DNA of 64,000 nucleotides. Source: Prolixibacteraceae bacterium. Its GTDB lineage: Bacteria > Bacteroidota > Bacteroidia > Bacteroidales > Prolixibacteraceae. Both the position numbers and the translations under genes were made by a program. The stretch is from contig CP082230.1 in the NCBI GenBank assembly GCA_019856515.1, positions 310,001 to 374,000 on the forward strand, written 5' to 3'. Below are positions 9,098 through 15,804 of the stretch, in pieces. Position 1 is the first letter of the stretch, and each line of letters starts with the position of its first letter. The notes under the pieces were generated by a model. That model was not told where the DNA came from, did no database searches, and saw only the letters and a list, made by a program, of their open reading frames with translations.

Positions 9098-11158
9098 TTA
9101 CATCATATTGCTGTGGTCATTGAGTTTCAATTGTCTGAAGATTGAAATAACATTATCCAAACTATACAATATGATTCTATCATTATTATTTGAAGTATTC
9201 TGCCTATGATTGTCTACGTTCGTATTGAGTTGATTTATTTTTATTGTCCAATCAGTCTGAGATGATGTCGTTGATTCTTCAAAGAGAATTTGATATGTTT
9301 CGTTGATTATTGGTTTTATGCTCTCGCTGTATTGTTGAAGAACTCTATTCTTAATAATAATAGCGTTTTTCAGCATGGTATGATTAAGAAAAATTTGATT
9401 AAAAATCATTGCTGTTTCTAATTCTTTTGTTGAAGGTTCTTTTATTAATTCTCTAGAAATATTCATAAGAATGGTATCTAATATCATAGCTCTGTTTCTA
9501 GTGCTGTTATTTTGGTCATGTTGTTGGTGGATGATAGAATAAAGTGATTCTTTTAAGAATCTACGATTAATAGATGAGGTCTGTTCAAGAAGTGAGATAT
9601 AGTCTTTGGATTGCCAACGGTGAAATATGAACCTTACGATTAGGAATGAAATTATTGATCCTAAAACTACGTTCATAATACGGGTTATCATGATGATGTC
9701 ATTCAACTCAGATAGAAGGCTAAAGCCAGATATTGTGAATATGTTAATGAATATAACGGCAATGTAATATCTTCTTTTCAACCATATAAAGAAGCCGTAA
9801 CTCGCTGTTGTCATTATAAAAATTTGACCAGCATATGTTGGTGCCATAAATGCTAATGCAGCTCCAGCTAATATGCCGATAATAGATCCTATGATTCTTT
9901 CAAAAATTTTCTCTGTCGTTTGATTAATCGTCGGTTGACATACAAAGAAACTTGTTAAAATAACCCAACCACCTTTAGGGAATGAGAATGCATATATTAG
10001 TATGCATACAATAAAAAAACACAAACTTAATCTTACTGCATATCTTAGTGACGAGTGGTTTAGTGTGAAGATTGAGAGTAGTTGGTCTTTTAGACTGATC
10101 GTGTAATTTCGGTAATTACTTCCATTGAGGTTTGATTGATCTTCCTTCGTGGATTCAGAAAGATTAAATGCTTCAATTATATTTCTAAATTTATGATCCT
10201 GTGGCTCTTTCTCTAATATATCGTGATAGGTAATATAGAAGGTTTGGATTATTTCGAATGTTCGTTCTAACTGGAGGTGTGTTGTCTGTTCTAGAATAGA
10301 GGTTGCTTGTTCTTTACAAAGATTCGATAAAAGGATATAGAATTGCCCTCTTATAAGTTGATTTTTTGTGTCTTCTGAACGATCCTCTTTTTTTACTTCT
10401 ATCTGTATATAGCCGAATACTGTTTCAAAAAAGTTTAGTTTATTAATAAGAAATGATTTTTCATATAGATGTCTTTTGCTTTTCTTGATAAGAATATAGC
10501 AACGTTGTGATTCATACAGTAACGTTGATTCATATTCATGTAGTTGTTGAGGGTTTGCTTCTATTGACCGAATCGAGCTTCTAATTTCTATATATTTGCT
10601 TAGGGCGAAGAATGCTTTGGAGAGATGCTCTTCTGTTTTTCTATATGGATTATAGTACGAAAAAATATATGAGATAGATCCAAAGACAAATGCTCCTATT
10701 GCGAAAAGAGTAGGTTGTTCATACCATGTGCTACTGTGTGGCAATCCCAAGAAGGCATAAATTGATATCAGAATTGCTCCTGTTGTAATCCCTTTGAATA
10801 TTTCATTAACACCACCCAAAAATGCCAATATAAAACTTAATATTACGAATGTCACAGTGAATACTATTGGGTGAGGTGAAACCAGCTCAATAATACTACC
10901 TATAATGAAGTAAGCCATCGAGTTTAAAATCGTAAAACGAATGTGATGATTGGTAGCTTCCCCTCCATCAGATATGGCTGTGCATAGAACACCCGTGGTG
11001 AGGCTTATCGCAAAAAATGCACTCTTGAACAGTGTTGCAATTGAAATTAGGATTACCATAGATATGGTAACCTTCAAAGCAAAAAACTTTGATGGGTGAT
11101 ACCAAAATGTGTTCTTTATGACCTTAAATAAATGGTTGTTTGTAAAGATCTGTTTCAT
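9098..11158 (-). CDS. FUSC/YccS-type inner-membrane protein
   Basis: A 686-residue protein from the ATG at 11158 (an in-frame TTG at 11191 is less likely). It has the architecture of YccS/YhfK and aromatic-acid efflux (AaeB/FUSC) proteins: a first block of about six membrane segments (residues ~25-160), a long hydrophilic helical region (~170-360), a second block of about six membrane segments (~375-520) including 'GGWVILTSFFVCQPTINQTTEKIFERIIGSIIGILAG', and a charged cytoplasmic tail. The second-block signature is the classic FUSC repeat. Family members are linked to export of aromatic acids or small toxic compounds with an MFP partner, which is absent here. It is 14-47 bp downstream of a second FUSC-like gene. 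Confidence 0.8.
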   Translation of the reverse strand: MKQIFTNNHLFKVIKNTFWYHPSKFFALKVTISMVILISIATLFKSAFFAISLTTGVLCTAISDGGEATNHHIRFTILNSMAYFIIGSIIELVSPHPIVFTVTFVILSFILAFLGGVNEIFKGITTGAILISIYAFLGLPHSSTWYEQPTLFAIGAFVFGSISYIFSYYNPYRKTEEHLSKAFFALSKYIEIRSSIRSIEANPQQLHEYESTLLYESQRCYILIKKSKRHLYEKSFLINKLNFFETVFGYIQIEVKKEDRSEDTKNQLIRGQFYILLSNLCKEQATSILEQTTHLQLERTFEIIQTFYITYHDILEKEPQDHKFRNIIEAFNLSESTKEDQSNLNGSNYRNYTISLKDQLLSIFTLNHSSLRYAVRLSLCFFIVCILIYAFSFPKGGWVILTSFFVCQPTINQTTEKIFERIIGSIIGILAGAALAFMAPTYAGQIFIMTTASYGFFIWLKRRYYIAVIFINIFTISGFSLLSELNDIIMITRIMNVVLGSIISFLIVRFIFHRWQSKDYISLLEQTSSINRRFLKESLYSIIHQQHDQNNSTRNRAMILDTILMNISRELIKEPSTKELETAMIFNQIFLNHTMLKNAIIIKNRVLQQYSESIKPIINETYQILFEESTTSSQTDWTIKINQLNTNVDNHRQNTSNNNDRIILYSLDNVISIFRQLKLNDHSNMM

Positions 11159-11205
11159 AATCACATCACCTTTCCTTTTTTGATTGATCAAATTTCATCT
11201 TTGGA

Positions 11206-12225
11206 TTATGATTGGGGTTTTATTCTTATCATTTTTAGGAGCATTAGATCGATTTTGGTCGCAAGATAACAGCCAATCAAAAAAATCATAATATCATTAA
11301 GCATAATGAGCAATATCTTGATGAAAGGGCTAATGGATGACATTGAATTAGGGGTGATATTGTACATGAGTGGAAACATAACTAGGGTTAACTGTAAAAT
11401 AGATCTGAGTTTTTTGTTACCCATTGACACATACATGATACAAGAATATATTATTGCAATTAATATATATTGAATTGTATTGGGAGTAGTTTCAATTAAT
11501 AAGTATTTCCATAAAAAAATGATGATAATCGAAATGATAAGGGACACTAGTACTGCTTTGATCGTGGGAAGTATTTGTGATTTAGTTGCAGTTATTCCAA
11601 GGAGTATTGTGAGAATAACACCTGCTCCTGCATGCATCGATTCTGGAGATGTTTTAATCCAAGCTGTGAATAATATATAGCAGATAATAACCCTGAAGAG
11701 ATATATTATGACTTTGTTGTCAGAATGATTTTGAATGTTAGGCTGTTCAAAGTTTGGCTTAAATATATGATCATATGTGGTAATGATGAGTGCTGTAATA
11801 ATACTTACACTTGCAACAATCAAAATACGATACATTAAGATTGAAATAAATTCAAGATTAAATCCAATATTTTTAACTCCAACTCCAAATACACCAATAG
11901 TCGCTATATATACAAAATATAGATATGAATTTCTGCTGTCTTTAATACATAGAACACCTGCTATGGCTATCGAAAGACAACATAACAGGTAGTACCATCT
12001 ACTTTCAGTAATATAGGAAAAAATGATAAGAGAAAGTGCTCCAAGTAGGGTTGCAAAGATTCTCCGTATTGCTTTACTTACAGAAAGACCTTTGGATGGC
12101 GAGAATATAACAACTATAGTCATGAGCCCCCATTCAGAATGACGAATCTCGAATGTCTCTGTTAAAAAAAGGTATATTAGTATGATTGTTCCAAAAATAA
12201 TACTAAGTCTCAATTGGTGTGTCAT
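11206..12225 (-). CDS. FUSC-like integral membrane protein
   Basis: A 339-residue, very hydrophobic protein with about ten predicted membrane segments. It carries two FUSC-type motifs: 'EWGLMTIVVIFSPSKGLSVSKAIRRIFATLLGALS' near residue 31 in the first half, and a weaker repeat around 200-230 ('AGAGVILTILLGITATKSQILPTIKAVLVS'). It resembles the DUF2955/FUSC families. It lacks the large soluble domains of the 697-residue neighbour it precedes, and the two may work together as an aromatic-compound exporter. That role is inferred from family and position only. Confidence 0.7.
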   Translation of the reverse strand: MTHQLRLSIIFGTIILIYLFLTETFEIRHSEWGLMTIVVIFSPSKGLSVSKAIRRIFATLLGALSLIIFSYITESRWYYLLCCLSIAIAGVLCIKDSRNSYLYFVYIATIGVFGVGVKNIGFNLEFISILMYRILIVASVSIITALIITTYDHIFKPNFEQPNIQNHSDNKVIIYLFRVIICYILFTAWIKTSPESMHAGAGVILTILLGITATKSQILPTIKAVLVSLIISIIIIFLWKYLLIETTPNTIQYILIAIIYSCIMYVSMGNKKLRSILQLTLVMFPLMYNITPNSMSSISPFIKILLIMLNDIMIFLIGCYLATKIDLMLLKMIRIKPQS

Positions 12226-12287: not shown

Positions 12288-13955
12288 TTAATGTCGTAAT
12301 TTTTCACTAAAAGCAACATTAAAAGAGGCGAGATCATTAGGATCAAGATGAATATTTACAACATTTAATCCTTTGGGTTTTTTCATTAAATTGAGAACTG
12401 TTTTCATCTCATTTTCTGTATATACCTCAAACCCTTTTGCGTTATTCTCATGTGCTCCAAATGCAATTGGCAGAAGATGATAGTTCCATACTTGAATATC
12501 ATTGTATGATCTGTAAACATCTTTATGAATCGCTCTCTCCGCAGCGTATCCTTTGTTATTAAGTACATAAAGAACAATGTTCTTGTCATGTGCAATAAGA
12601 GTTGACATCTCTTGTGCAGTCATTTGGAATCCTCCATCTCCTAGAACTCCAATTACCCTGCGATTTTTTATGTCAGCAAAAGTTGCCCCAACCAGTGTTC
12701 CAAATCCAGATCCTAATGAGGCCCAATTTCCATTTCCTTGAATGATCGTATTGGGAGGAAATCCTATTTGTGAGCAGTTGATATAGCCACCGACCTCTCC
12801 AAAAAAGACATCCCCTTTATCAAAGTAGTGTGCAAACATCAACATAAGACGATCAATAGTGATTGGATCATCAGTCGGTACGACCTTTTCACAAACGTCA
12901 TAATAAAATCGTTTCTCTTCCTTAATGAGAGGAAAGTCGTAGATATTATGCTTCTCTTGTTTAACCAACGCAGGAATAATATCTCTAAGGAATACATTTT
13001 CATAAGTTTTGTCTCCAATAATGACTTTGCTTTGAAGAAAATCGACACCGTTCTTTATGTTTCCACTAAAAATACCTGTGTCAAATTCATTATTAGTGAC
13101 TCCTATCTTTAGTGTAAGATCTGATTTTTCAACATGATTAAGACATAGTTCAGTACTCATTGCTCCCATATAAAATCCAACAGAACAATCTAACCTTTCA
13201 AATGATCCGTTTTTCCCAACAAAACTTGTTGCAACTGTTGCTCCAATCTCTTCAATAAGTGATAAAACATCTTTCTCAAGATATTCTCTTTGTACTAGGT
13301 GTCCTACGAGAGCATTCCTAGTTTTACTTTTTGTAAGCATCACCGAGAGTTGTTTAAGACAAGCAACTAAATTCAGCTTGTTTGACTGTCCTTGCATTAG
13401 ATTGATGGGATTCCCATCCCACTCTATTTCCTTGGATTGTAAATCATATGGTAATTCAATGTATACAGGTTTTTTATAGCACAATGATGTTCTAATCAAG
13501 TCATCTATCATTGTTATCGCATCTTCTGATCTCATTAATCGTTTAGACTTAATTGTTATTTGATCAAACAACCTAAGTGTAGCATCCAAATCTGTTCCTA
13601 GTACATGATGATATAATTTATCAGATGGTGTATTGAATACTTCCGTTTTAGGGCTACCTGCGATTACGATTAAAGGAATATCATCAGCGTATGCTCCTGC
13701 TACAGCATTTGTAGTGTTGAGTGCTCCTGGTCCATGAGTAACAGCGACTGCGCCAAATCCATTGATCTTCGAGTAACCATCTGCATTGTATGCACCATTT
13801 AATTCGTTGGTAACACCAATATGCTTAACACCATGGTCTCCATCAAGTAATACATCAAAGAAGGGGAGGACATAATCTCCTGGGATGCCAAATAGATAGT
13901 TTACATTCACCTCTTTAAGTCTTCTAAGGAGAAAGTCAGAAATTGATATTTTCAT
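12288..13955 (-). CDS. ipdC: TPP-dependent indole/phenylpyruvate-type decarboxylase
   Basis: A thiamine-diphosphate 2-oxoacid decarboxylase, 555 residues from the ATG at 13955; the longer frame up to 14042 adds 29 atypical residues. It has the N-terminal 'YLFGIPGDYVLPFFDVL' motif, the catalytic Glu region 'NELNGAYNADGYSK', the 'YHH' pair (KLYHHVLG) typical of decarboxylases, and the C-terminal TPP motif 'GDGGFQMTAQEMSTL...VLNN'. Such enzymes form aldehydes from pyruvate, phenylpyruvate or indolepyruvate. Length and the HH pair fit the PDC/IpdC group better than acetolactate synthase. It is divergent from a DUF169-MarR operon across a region with two palindromic operator candidates, so MarR control is likely. 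The gene symbol is by group, not proven substrate. Confidence 0.78.
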   Translation of the reverse strand: MKISISDFLLRRLKEVNVNYLFGIPGDYVLPFFDVLLDGDHGVKHIGVTNELNGAYNADGYSKINGFGAVAVTHGPGALNTTNAVAGAYADDIPLIVIAGSPKTEVFNTPSDKLYHHVLGTDLDATLRLFDQITIKSKRLMRSEDAITMIDDLIRTSLCYKKPVYIELPYDLQSKEIEWDGNPINLMQGQSNKLNLVACLKQLSVMLTKSKTRNALVGHLVQREYLEKDVLSLIEEIGATVATSFVGKNGSFERLDCSVGFYMGAMSTELCLNHVEKSDLTLKIGVTNNEFDTGIFSGNIKNGVDFLQSKVIIGDKTYENVFLRDIIPALVKQEKHNIYDFPLIKEEKRFYYDVCEKVVPTDDPITIDRLMLMFAHYFDKGDVFFGEVGGYINCSQIGFPPNTIIQGNGNWASLGSGFGTLVGATFADIKNRRVIGVLGDGGFQMTAQEMSTLIAHDKNIVLYVLNNKGYAAERAIHKDVYRSYNDIQVWNYHLLPIAFGAHENNAKGFEVYTENEMKTVLNLMKKPKGLNVVNIHLDPNDLASFNVAFSEKLRH

Positions 13956-14053
13956 TATTAAGAGTTTTAGATGTTTTATTACTAACCGATAGTACAACTC
14001 TTTTGTTTCATGATTTTCTTTAAGGTTTGATAATATTCTCAAATATGGAAATG

Positions 14054-14084
14054 TTTGTCATGACAAATAAAAGTTATATATTTG
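14054..14084 (+). promoter_or_regulatory. Bacteroidota-type promoter of the DUF169-marR operon
   Basis: TTTG at 14054-14057, a 19-base spacer, then TATATTTG at 14077-14084: an exact match to the Bacteroidota primary sigma consensus (TTTG, about 19 bases, TAnnTTTG). Transcription should start near 14090, 40 bases before the ATG at 14131. Confidence 0.75.
14055..14066. promoter_or_regulatory. Operator palindrome 1 (TTGTCATGACAA)
   Basis: A perfect 12-bp palindrome that overlaps the -33 TTTG box of the plus-strand promoter. The identical palindrome recurs 27 bp downstream. The likely binder is the MarR regulator encoded by the second gene of the operon; this is inference from position and symmetry. 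Confidence 0.75.
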
Positions 14085-14093
14085 TCATGACAA
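14082..14093. promoter_or_regulatory. Operator palindrome 2 (TTGTCATGACAA)
   Basis: The second copy of the same 12-bp palindrome. It overlaps the last three bases of the -7 box (TATATTTG) and the expected transcription start. A dimer bound here would block the promoter directly. The 27-bp centre spacing is close to, but not exactly, a whole number of helical turns (about 2.6). Confidence 0.75.
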
Positions 14094-14130
14094 GTATTTC
14101 TGTGTTGTGAATAAAAAACATTTTCGAGTT

Positions 14131-14838
14131 ATGAATAAAGAAACTTTTATTGAGAATTATAGAACAGCTTTTGGTAACTATGAATTGCCAATTGTTTTTT
14201 GGTATTCCAAAGAACCTGCTGTTCAATGCAGAAAAAGTAAAGGATGTTACTTAAAAGACCTTGATGAATGTAGACAAGGAGGGCTTTTGAGTTATGGTTT
14301 AGATGATATTAGTTGTCCTGGAGGTAAAGTCTATGCTGGGTTCTCAGAGGAACCACCTTTCTTAAGTGGGTTTGTTTCTGGAAAAGAGAAGTTTAAAAGT
14401 AGACCTGAGTTGGTTACACGTTTTATTGATGAACTTAATTTGCCAAACTTGTCTACAAAATACTTGAATTTTGCTCCTTTGTCTTACATTGAGGATCTTA
14501 AAATGGTTGAAGGACTGGTGTTTTTTGCTACTCCTGATGTGCTTTCTGGTTTAGTTTATTGGGCCCAATTTGATAGTAATAATAATGATGCAGTTAGTGT
14601 TCCTTTTGGATCGGGATGTAGCTCGTTATTATCACAAACATTAGTCGAGAATAGTCTCGGAGGTAAACGAACGTTTATTGGACTCTTCGATCCAGCAGCT
14701 AGAAGTCATTTTAATGAGAATATATTAACTTTTGCTATTCCGATGTCTCGATTTGAAGAATTGTATCATACTTTTGACCAATGCTGTCTACAAGGCACTC
14801 ATGCATGGCAAAAAATAAAAGATAGGATAGATGGATAA
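14131..14838 (+). CDS. DUF169 family protein
   Basis: A 235-residue cytosolic protein of the DUF169 family, from the ATG at 14131; an in-frame GTG at 14107 would add 8 residues. Visible family features are an N-terminal 'GNYELPIVFWYS' strand, a Cys-rich segment with Cys at about 33, 39, 47 and 61 ending in 'ISCPGGKVYAGF', a central 'YLNFAPLSYIEDL' block, and 'VPFGSGCSSLL' with further Cys. DUF169 has no established reaction; the conserved Cys hint at metal or cluster binding. It is the first gene of an operon with a MarR regulator (8-bp overlap) and divergent from the TPP decarboxylase gene. Confidence 0.8.
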   Translation: MNKETFIENYRTAFGNYELPIVFWYSKEPAVQCRKSKGCYLKDLDECRQGGLLSYGLDDISCPGGKVYAGFSEEPPFLSGFVSGKEKFKSRPELVTRFIDELNLPNLSTKYLNFAPLSYIEDLKMVEGLVFFATPDVLSGLVYWAQFDSNNNDAVSVPFGSGCSSLLSQTLVENSLGGKRTFIGLFDPAARSHFNENILTFAIPMSRFEELYHTFDQCCLQGTHAWQKIKDRIDG

Positions 14839-15265
14839 ATTTAATTTAGAGACGTCGATTAATTATAATATTGCTCGAATAGCGATGCTTTTAAAAAGGA
14901 AGGTTACACAAATTATTGCAGATTATGATCTTTCTATAACGCCTGACCAATGGGTAATATTATATTATTTATGGGAACATGAAAAAATGACTATTGGCAA
15001 CTTATCCAAAGTCACGAGAAAAGATTATGCTAACATTACCCGAATCGTTGATAAACTAGTTAATCTCGGTTATGTTAGGAAGGAGAAGTCCACAGAAGAT
15101 AATCGAATAACTTATGTTGAAGCGCTTTCAAAATCTCACGAAATAAAGAATGCCGTTGAGTCTTGTTGGATTGCATCAACTGAAATAAGTATGAGAGATA
15201 TAGGAGAGGACGAACAAAATATGATATTAGATCTTCTTAGGAGAATAGAACAAAATATTATTTAG
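14831..15265 (+). CDS. MarR family transcriptional regulator
   Basis: A 144-residue winged-helix regulator. The helix-turn-helix and wing are clear: 'LSITPDQWVILYYLWEHEKMTIGNLSKVTRKDYANITRIVDKLVNLGYVRKEKSTEDNR' starts near residue 34, with the wing DxR (EDNR) at its end. MarR proteins are dimers that bind palindromes and are released by small, often aromatic, ligands. It overlaps the DUF169 gene by 8 bp. The two identical palindromes over the operon promoter are good targets for autorepression and for control of the divergent decarboxylase. Confidence 0.88.
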   Translation: MDKFNLETSINYNIARIAMLLKRKVTQIIADYDLSITPDQWVILYYLWEHEKMTIGNLSKVTRKDYANITRIVDKLVNLGYVRKEKSTEDNRITYVEALSKSHEIKNAVESCWIASTEISMRDIGEDEQNMILDLLRRIEQNII

Positions 15266-15354: not shown

Positions 15355-15804
15355 ATGAACAAACTTCGTAATGACTCTAGGTTTATTTCTTTAATACACT
15401 GGATTACATTTGTACTATTGATCTTCGTTGCAATTTCTGGAGTGAATATTTTCTTAGATGTTGATCGTATTAGTATAGGTGTTATTATCCATCTTATTAT
15501 AGGCTCACTGATTTTTTGTTTGACATTTATTCGTGTGCTATCTTTACGTAAGACCCAAATCAAAAGGATAAATAATATTTCACTATTTCATCAGAAAATA
15601 ATCAATATTGTTCATTTTTTGATATATGCTTTGTTGTTTATTATTCCCATTACTGGGGTGGCAACACTATTGAATCAAGGTCAAATTAGTGAAGTTCCAC
15701 TGCTTTTTCATCAATTACTTTTTCTTTTACTCTGTATGTTGATTGTAATTCATATTGTTGGTGTAGTGAAACAATTGCTTTCTACAAAAGCATTGTTTGA
15801 TTGA
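15355..15804 (+). CDS. Cytochrome b561-like membrane protein
   Basis: A 149-residue protein with four predicted membrane helices (about 13-32, 41-61, 83-103, 118-139). Histidines at 15, 46, 87 and 133 lie in or next to helices 1, 2, 3 and 4, which fits the two-haem-axial-ligand pattern of the cytochrome b561 / Ni-hydrogenase b-type family. It would move electrons across or within the inner membrane. It lies 89 bp after the MarR gene, so co-transcription is possible but not clear. No dehydrogenase partner is next to it, so its redox partner is unknown. Confidence 0.65.
   Translation: MNKLRNDSRFISLIHWITFVLLIFVAISGVNIFLDVDRISIGVIIHLIIGSLIFCLTFIRVLSLRKTQIKRINNISLFHQKIINIVHFLIYALLFIIPITGVATLLNQGQISEVPLLFHQLLFLLLCMLIVIHIVGVVKQLLSTKALFD

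Follow-up and report, generated by a model that had tools for sequence, protein, structure and literature searches.

Twin palindromes over a Bacteroidota promoter as predicted operators of a MarR-family regulator encoded with a DUF169 protein

Introduction

Two identical 12-bp palindromes, TTGTCATGACAA, lie at positions 14055-14066 and 14082-14093 of the window (the whole 64-kb stretch of DNA analysed here), between a decarboxylase gene on the minus strand and a DUF169-MarR operon on the plus strand. This arrangement raises the question of whether the palindromes serve the MarR protein encoded beside them, and which of the flanking genes would then be under its control. MarR and OhrR repress via palindromic operators over their own promoters. 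The locus was considered together with related loci from public genomes.

Material and methods

Public genomes were scanned with a MarR alignment and the best 80 of 167 loci were kept, comprising 18 close loci (L042-L059, 35-51% identity) and 62 distant loci (≤30%). The close set used for counting (n = 20) consisted of the window's own locus, L011 and L042-L059; five of the 20 are also numbered L004, L010, L038, L039 and L040. The close loci are partly non-independent, L053 and L054 being near-copies and L052 and L055 closely related. Palindromes were searched from -300 to +60 of the MarR or operon start. The promoter consensus was that of sigma-ABfr, the Bacteroidota primary sigma factor, as given in an excerpt of PMC7366714.

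Results

Palindromes and forward promoter. Putative operator 1 (14054..14067, TTTGTCATGACAAA) is a perfect 14-bp palindrome and putative operator 2 (14081..14094, TTTGTCATGACAAG) has a perfect core of 12 bp; neither was assigned a strand. The -33 box of the DUF169-marR promoter, TTTG (14054..14057, plus strand), lies inside operator 1, and the TTTG of the -7 box, TATATTTG (14077..14084, plus strand), forms the first bases of operator 2. The two boxes are separated by exactly 19 bases, in agreement with the sigma-ABfr pattern (TTTG and TAnnTTTG, about 19 apart), and the perfect form TTTG-N19-TAnnTTTG occurs once per strand across the 64-kb window. Both palindromes, both boxes and the spacer are present as an earlier note on this DNA had described them, and its distance of 27 bp is correct when read from start to start.

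Rarity of the site. Rather than being scattered over the genome, an outcome that the earlier note had named as evidence against its proposal, exact TTGTCATGACAA was found only at the two window sites in the whole 5.19-Mb genome. Near matches were at background level: the 14-mer with up to two mismatches gave 55 sites in the same genome against 50 for a reversed control pattern, and the 12-mer with up to two mismatches gave seven matches in the window against a chance mean of 5.98. What sets the window sites apart is thus their exactness and their pairing. Among 395 genomes sampled across the phylum, the exact pair was found in one, the window's own. A looser pair pattern was found in two of 393 genomes of the order (the own genome and G020), both times at a DUF169-MarR operon, and its control pattern in none of the 393.

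Conservation at MarR loci. The palindrome was present with at most two mismatches in 12 at 19 of the 20 close MarR loci, the best match per locus being exact in 12, with one mismatch in five, two in two and three in one (L056). At 15 of the 20, two sites with at most two mismatches each stood 25-28 bp from one another, and the promoter boxes were separated by spacers of 17-20; the five loci with no such pair near the start were L011, L044, L052, L058 and L056. None of 61 distant MarR loci was better than three mismatches (one of the 62 was dropped for too little upstream sequence), and among 1000 shuffles 2.5% reached two mismatches and none reached one or zero. A similar paired palindrome was found at none of the 62 distant MarR loci; of the 20 close loci, 12 were put through the same paired-palindrome search, and eight passed its stricter rule. 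The consensus of 32 sites, picked at two mismatches or fewer, a choice that favours the consensus, is TTTGTC[AG][TC]GACAAA with TTG and CAA invariant. Conservation of the sites is inflated, because the promoter by itself already calls for the TTTG in each of them.

L056 was at first taken as a locus lacking the site, a reading dropped when TTGTTGCGACAA and TTGTCATGACAA were found 28 bp apart about 4.1 kb upstream of its MarR gene, on TTTG-N20-TATATTTG. The pair stands at the head of a co-directional cluster whose last gene is the MarR gene. Internal gaps of about 295 and 156 bases leave a joint operon unproven, and the locus is still counted as a miss.

DUF169 relatives occur in 42 of 295 genomes of the order, the own genome included. 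Among 15 DUF169 loci other than that of the window (about 1.5 kb of flank), a MarR gene adjoins DUF169 at L004, L010 and L011, each of which has the 12-mer upstream without a mismatch, L004 in two copies with the 27-bp spacing of the window. The 12 DUF169 loci with no adjoining MarR gene had no palindrome at zero or one mismatch; two of them, L013 and L016, had a two-mismatch match at the start codon. The comparison strongly supports a tie between the predicted operators and this MarR group. At one further locus (L019, in G105) the DUF169 relative is split over two frames, by a frameshift or an assembly error.

Partner genes. The neighbourhood conservation on which the earlier note had staked its proposal holds in part, as the DUF169-MarR-operator unit recurs but no relative of the decarboxylase was found at the 18 related MarR loci (search at E ≤ 1e-5, flanks of up to 6 kb, shorter at contig ends). 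DUF169 beside MarR is intact in 11 of the 20 close loci, broken in one (L046, the same as L038) and absent in eight. Some of these eight have other partners: PNPOx-domain proteins (identified by Pfam in L044 and L045 and by similarity of sequence in L050), an MFS transporter (L044), an SDR with an FAD enzyme (L056), or small membrane proteins with a weak likeness to DUF2269, which in L056 and L057 stays below the Pfam cut-off. On the MarR tree, which has many weak branches, the DUF169 label needs two changes, so that the site outlives changes of partner. The regulator and its site are kept while the cargo changes, which may point to one shared signal for otherwise unexplained proteins such as DUF169, and from the mix of partners the compound responded to may be small and perhaps aromatic or reactive. 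The cargo as a whole spans DUF169, PNPOx-like and membrane proteins and, in the window, the decarboxylase-FUSC genes.

At L038/L046 a broken DUF169 gene (1938-2360 in L038) stands beside an intact MarR gene, and the two sites are still 27 bp apart, each having drifted to two mismatches. The divergent DUF169/MarR units L052-L055 closely resemble one another although they come from Parabacteroides, Bacteroides pyogenes, a Bacteroidaceae MAG and a Prevotella MAG, and in L010 the unit lies near an ORF that, judged by eye, resembles a mobilisation protein; together these are a hint of horizontal transfer.

The MarR and DUF169 proteins. The proposed repressor, a MarR-family regulator (14831..15265, plus strand), is encoded by a gene overlapping the DUF169 gene by 8 bases. 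Its winged-helix domain matched PF01047 with 51.5 bits (cut-off 24.6). The structure model (pLDDT 95) matched MarR structures in Foldseek, including DNA complexes of MarR, OhrR and HpaR, and matched PcaV with its natural ligand at a TM score of 0.91. By sequence and comparison, a palindromic site lies in the promoter of the protein's own operon. The protein stayed below the cut-off of all 16 listed NCBIfam MarR models; the best match was BilQ (NF045593), rejected at 45 bits against a cut-off of 125, and HpaR (TIGR02337) was likewise rejected at 31.2 against 121.2 bits. A small-molecule ligand is plausible. Cys112 is kept in 43 of 45 chosen relatives, and may possibly be a redox or thiol sensor.

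The DUF169 gene (14131..14838, plus strand) probably begins at ATG 14131, which is favoured by the alignment, with GTG 14107 as the alternative start. The protein is a PF02596 member (87.4 bits, gathering cut-off 27). It had been described as Cys-rich, a description that reduces to three Cys residues conserved in 50 of 50 chosen relatives. No function is stated in the excerpts of PMC5322559, PMC4001038 and PMC12828279 or in those of the COG2043 literature; according to an excerpt of PMC4001038, the DUF169 gene Dde_0597 is among those that, when interrupted, led to high fitness with nitrate. A cytochrome b561-like protein (PF01292, 149 aa) is encoded at 15355-15804 on the plus strand, 89 bases after the MarR gene.

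The decarboxylase and its neighbours. The divergent gene, a possible second target, encodes a ThDP-dependent 2-oxoacid decarboxylase (12288..13955, minus strand). ATG 13955 is most likely its start, which places it 98 bases from operator 1. PF02776, PF00205 (31.1 against 30.4 bits) and PF02775 were all above their cut-offs, which assigns the protein to the ThDP-decarboxylase superfamily, and its nearest PDB neighbour by sequence is a branched-chain 2-oxoacid decarboxylase. The label ipdC used in the earlier note could not be established, as the cut-offs for indolepyruvate decarboxylase (TIGR03393, 267.1 against 946 bits) and indole/phenylpyruvate decarboxylase (TIGR03394, 178.7 against 554.5 bits) were both missed.

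Homologues at E ≤ 1e-60 were found in six of 295 genomes of the order, including the own genome. A paralogue in the own genome, 57% identical (L143, G000:C1:19811-21478), lies near an enolase-like gene, and the exact palindrome is absent at that locus. In the one genome of the same genus that was compared (G335), the nearest match to the decarboxylase was 25% identical. With this and its absence from the related MarR loci, a conserved decarboxylase-DUF169-MarR unit is not supported.

Two genes for FUSC-family (fusaric-acid-resistance-like) membrane proteins share the strand of the decarboxylase gene. The nearer (11206..12225, minus strand) follows it after 62 bases, possibly in the same operon, and the second (9098..11191, minus strand; TTG start as listed) lies 14 bases further on. 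These gaps suggest a decarboxylase-exporter operon.

Promoter boxes on the reverse strand. Towards the decarboxylase, the window holds a weaker candidate promoter, CTTG-N19-TTTATTTG (14064..14094, minus strand), with one mismatch per box, and an alternative candidate, TTTA-N20-CATATTTG (14040..14071, minus strand), with operator 1 in its spacer. Since the palindrome begins with TTTG, a pair of sites places TTTG correctly on both strands. At the 15 loci with a site pair, not all of them independent, a neighbour test made after the fact (mechanical ORFs of at least 110 aa, about 490 and 580 bases away in L043 and L046) found the nearest neighbour on the other side divergent in 11 and not divergent in four. 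Of the 11 loci, nine had perfect reverse boxes, TTTG and TATATTTG; of the four, none did. In six of these nine (L045, L047, L051, L053, L054 and L055) the divergent gene, for DUF169 or an epimerase-like protein, is within 31 bases. Imperfect reverse boxes despite a divergent neighbour were found in L043 and in the window itself; with the window an exception of this kind, co-control of its decarboxylase is no more than possible.

Discussion

Very probably the palindromes serve as twin operators for MarR, the product of the operon's second gene, and cover the promoter so that DUF169-marR would be autorepressed. A MarR dimer on each site would cover the -33 box and the -7 box with the start, RNA polymerase would be blocked from the covered promoter, and the operon would be repressed; MarR would come off the DNA on binding a ligand or when its almost invariant Cys112 is modified. 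The spacing of about 27 bp would follow from the left arm of each operator, TTTGTC, which contains the TTTG needed by each box. Being palindromes, the two sites can provide promoter boxes on either strand, and with TTTG common to the -33 and -7 boxes of the Bacteroidota promoter, one repressor could switch two divergent genes. Where a relative has a divergent gene, this one pair of sites could thus switch both genes, and in the window, where the reverse boxes are imperfect, the switch may extend to the decarboxylase and the FUSC genes. Autorepression, as the earlier note had it, is well supported by comparison, the predicted site tracking the MarR group; from sequence and comparison we infer the binding of MarR, and with it repression, ligand release and divergent control. 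A wider reading, in which paired MarR sites form both a two-strand promoter and its lock, with the cargo swapped and the signal shared, is offered tentatively, at somewhat under even chances.

How far the control reaches is the more balanced question. MarR may control DUF169-marR only, with the decarboxylase an unrelated neighbour under its own promoter, and we regard the chances of this as about even: the decarboxylase was not found beside MarR in the 18 related loci (flanks of up to 6 kb), MarR partners vary among loci, and the window's reverse boxes are imperfect. Yet operator 1, which each of the two candidate reverse promoters overlaps, stands 98 bases away from the ATG of the decarboxylase, and perfect reverse boxes are frequent in divergent relatives. 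The co-control suggested in the earlier note therefore keeps its argument from proximity, but a reverse promoter with two mismatches and the lack of the pairing in related loci weigh against it, and control of the decarboxylase through the same sites is put forward as a possibility.

The identity and the mode of action of the bound protein are less evenly contested. Some MarR-family proteins activate, and the regulator could be an activator, or a repressor on one site and an activator on the other; this is improbable, as both sites fall directly on the promoter boxes, and a protein occupying those positions should be in competition with RNA polymerase. Binding of the palindromes by another regulator, with the MarR gene a mere member of its regulon, would suit the distance of about 4.1 kb between the pair and the MarR gene in L056, and is nevertheless rated lower still: the site follows the MarR group through changes of partner gene, DUF169 loci with no adjoining MarR gene lack it at zero or one mismatch, and it occupies a single locus in its own genome, unlike the sites of a global regulator. 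That the repeat arose by chance in an A+T-rich promoter hardly deserves credence, even though the promoter's own TTTG supplies part of each site and near matches are no commoner than background, because exact sites occur nowhere else in the genome and the palindrome co-occurs with one MarR group. An origin by chance or from a global regulator was rejected on these grounds. Autorepression by MarR through the twin operators is thus the preferred reading.

Comparison alone here assigns a precise likely binding site to a Bacteroidales MarR group, in a phylum with its own promoter code. The predicted site offers a direct route to the signal controlling DUF169, and palindromes beginning with TTTG about 27 bp apart provide a search rule for locked, possibly two-way, Bacteroidota promoters. 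In open-licence PMC papers TTGTCATGACAA matched only what is, by its title, a medulloblastoma paper, and the arrangement is not described in the titles and abstract beginnings of the listed open-licence PMC papers on MarR, palindromes and Bacteroidota promoters.

The predicted design is, with high likelihood, a conserved version of a familiar type of switch, MarR operators over their own promoter. With the autorepressors of the MarR family (E. coli MarR, OhrR and HpaR) it shares the winged-helix MarR fold and palindromic sites in the promoter of the regulator's own operon; it differs in having two sites that are nearly identical, spaced by about 27 bp and each furnished with the TTTG of a Bacteroidota box, in a site pair usable on both strands, and in DUF169 as the partner gene. 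BilQ, a MarR regulator that NCBIfam links to bilirubin utilization, is the best NCBIfam match, but its cut-off is not reached and the neighbours in the window are DUF169, decarboxylase and FUSC genes. Like other sigma-ABfr promoters, that of the window has exact boxes and a spacer of 19; unlike them, both of its boxes lie within or overlap putative palindromic operators.
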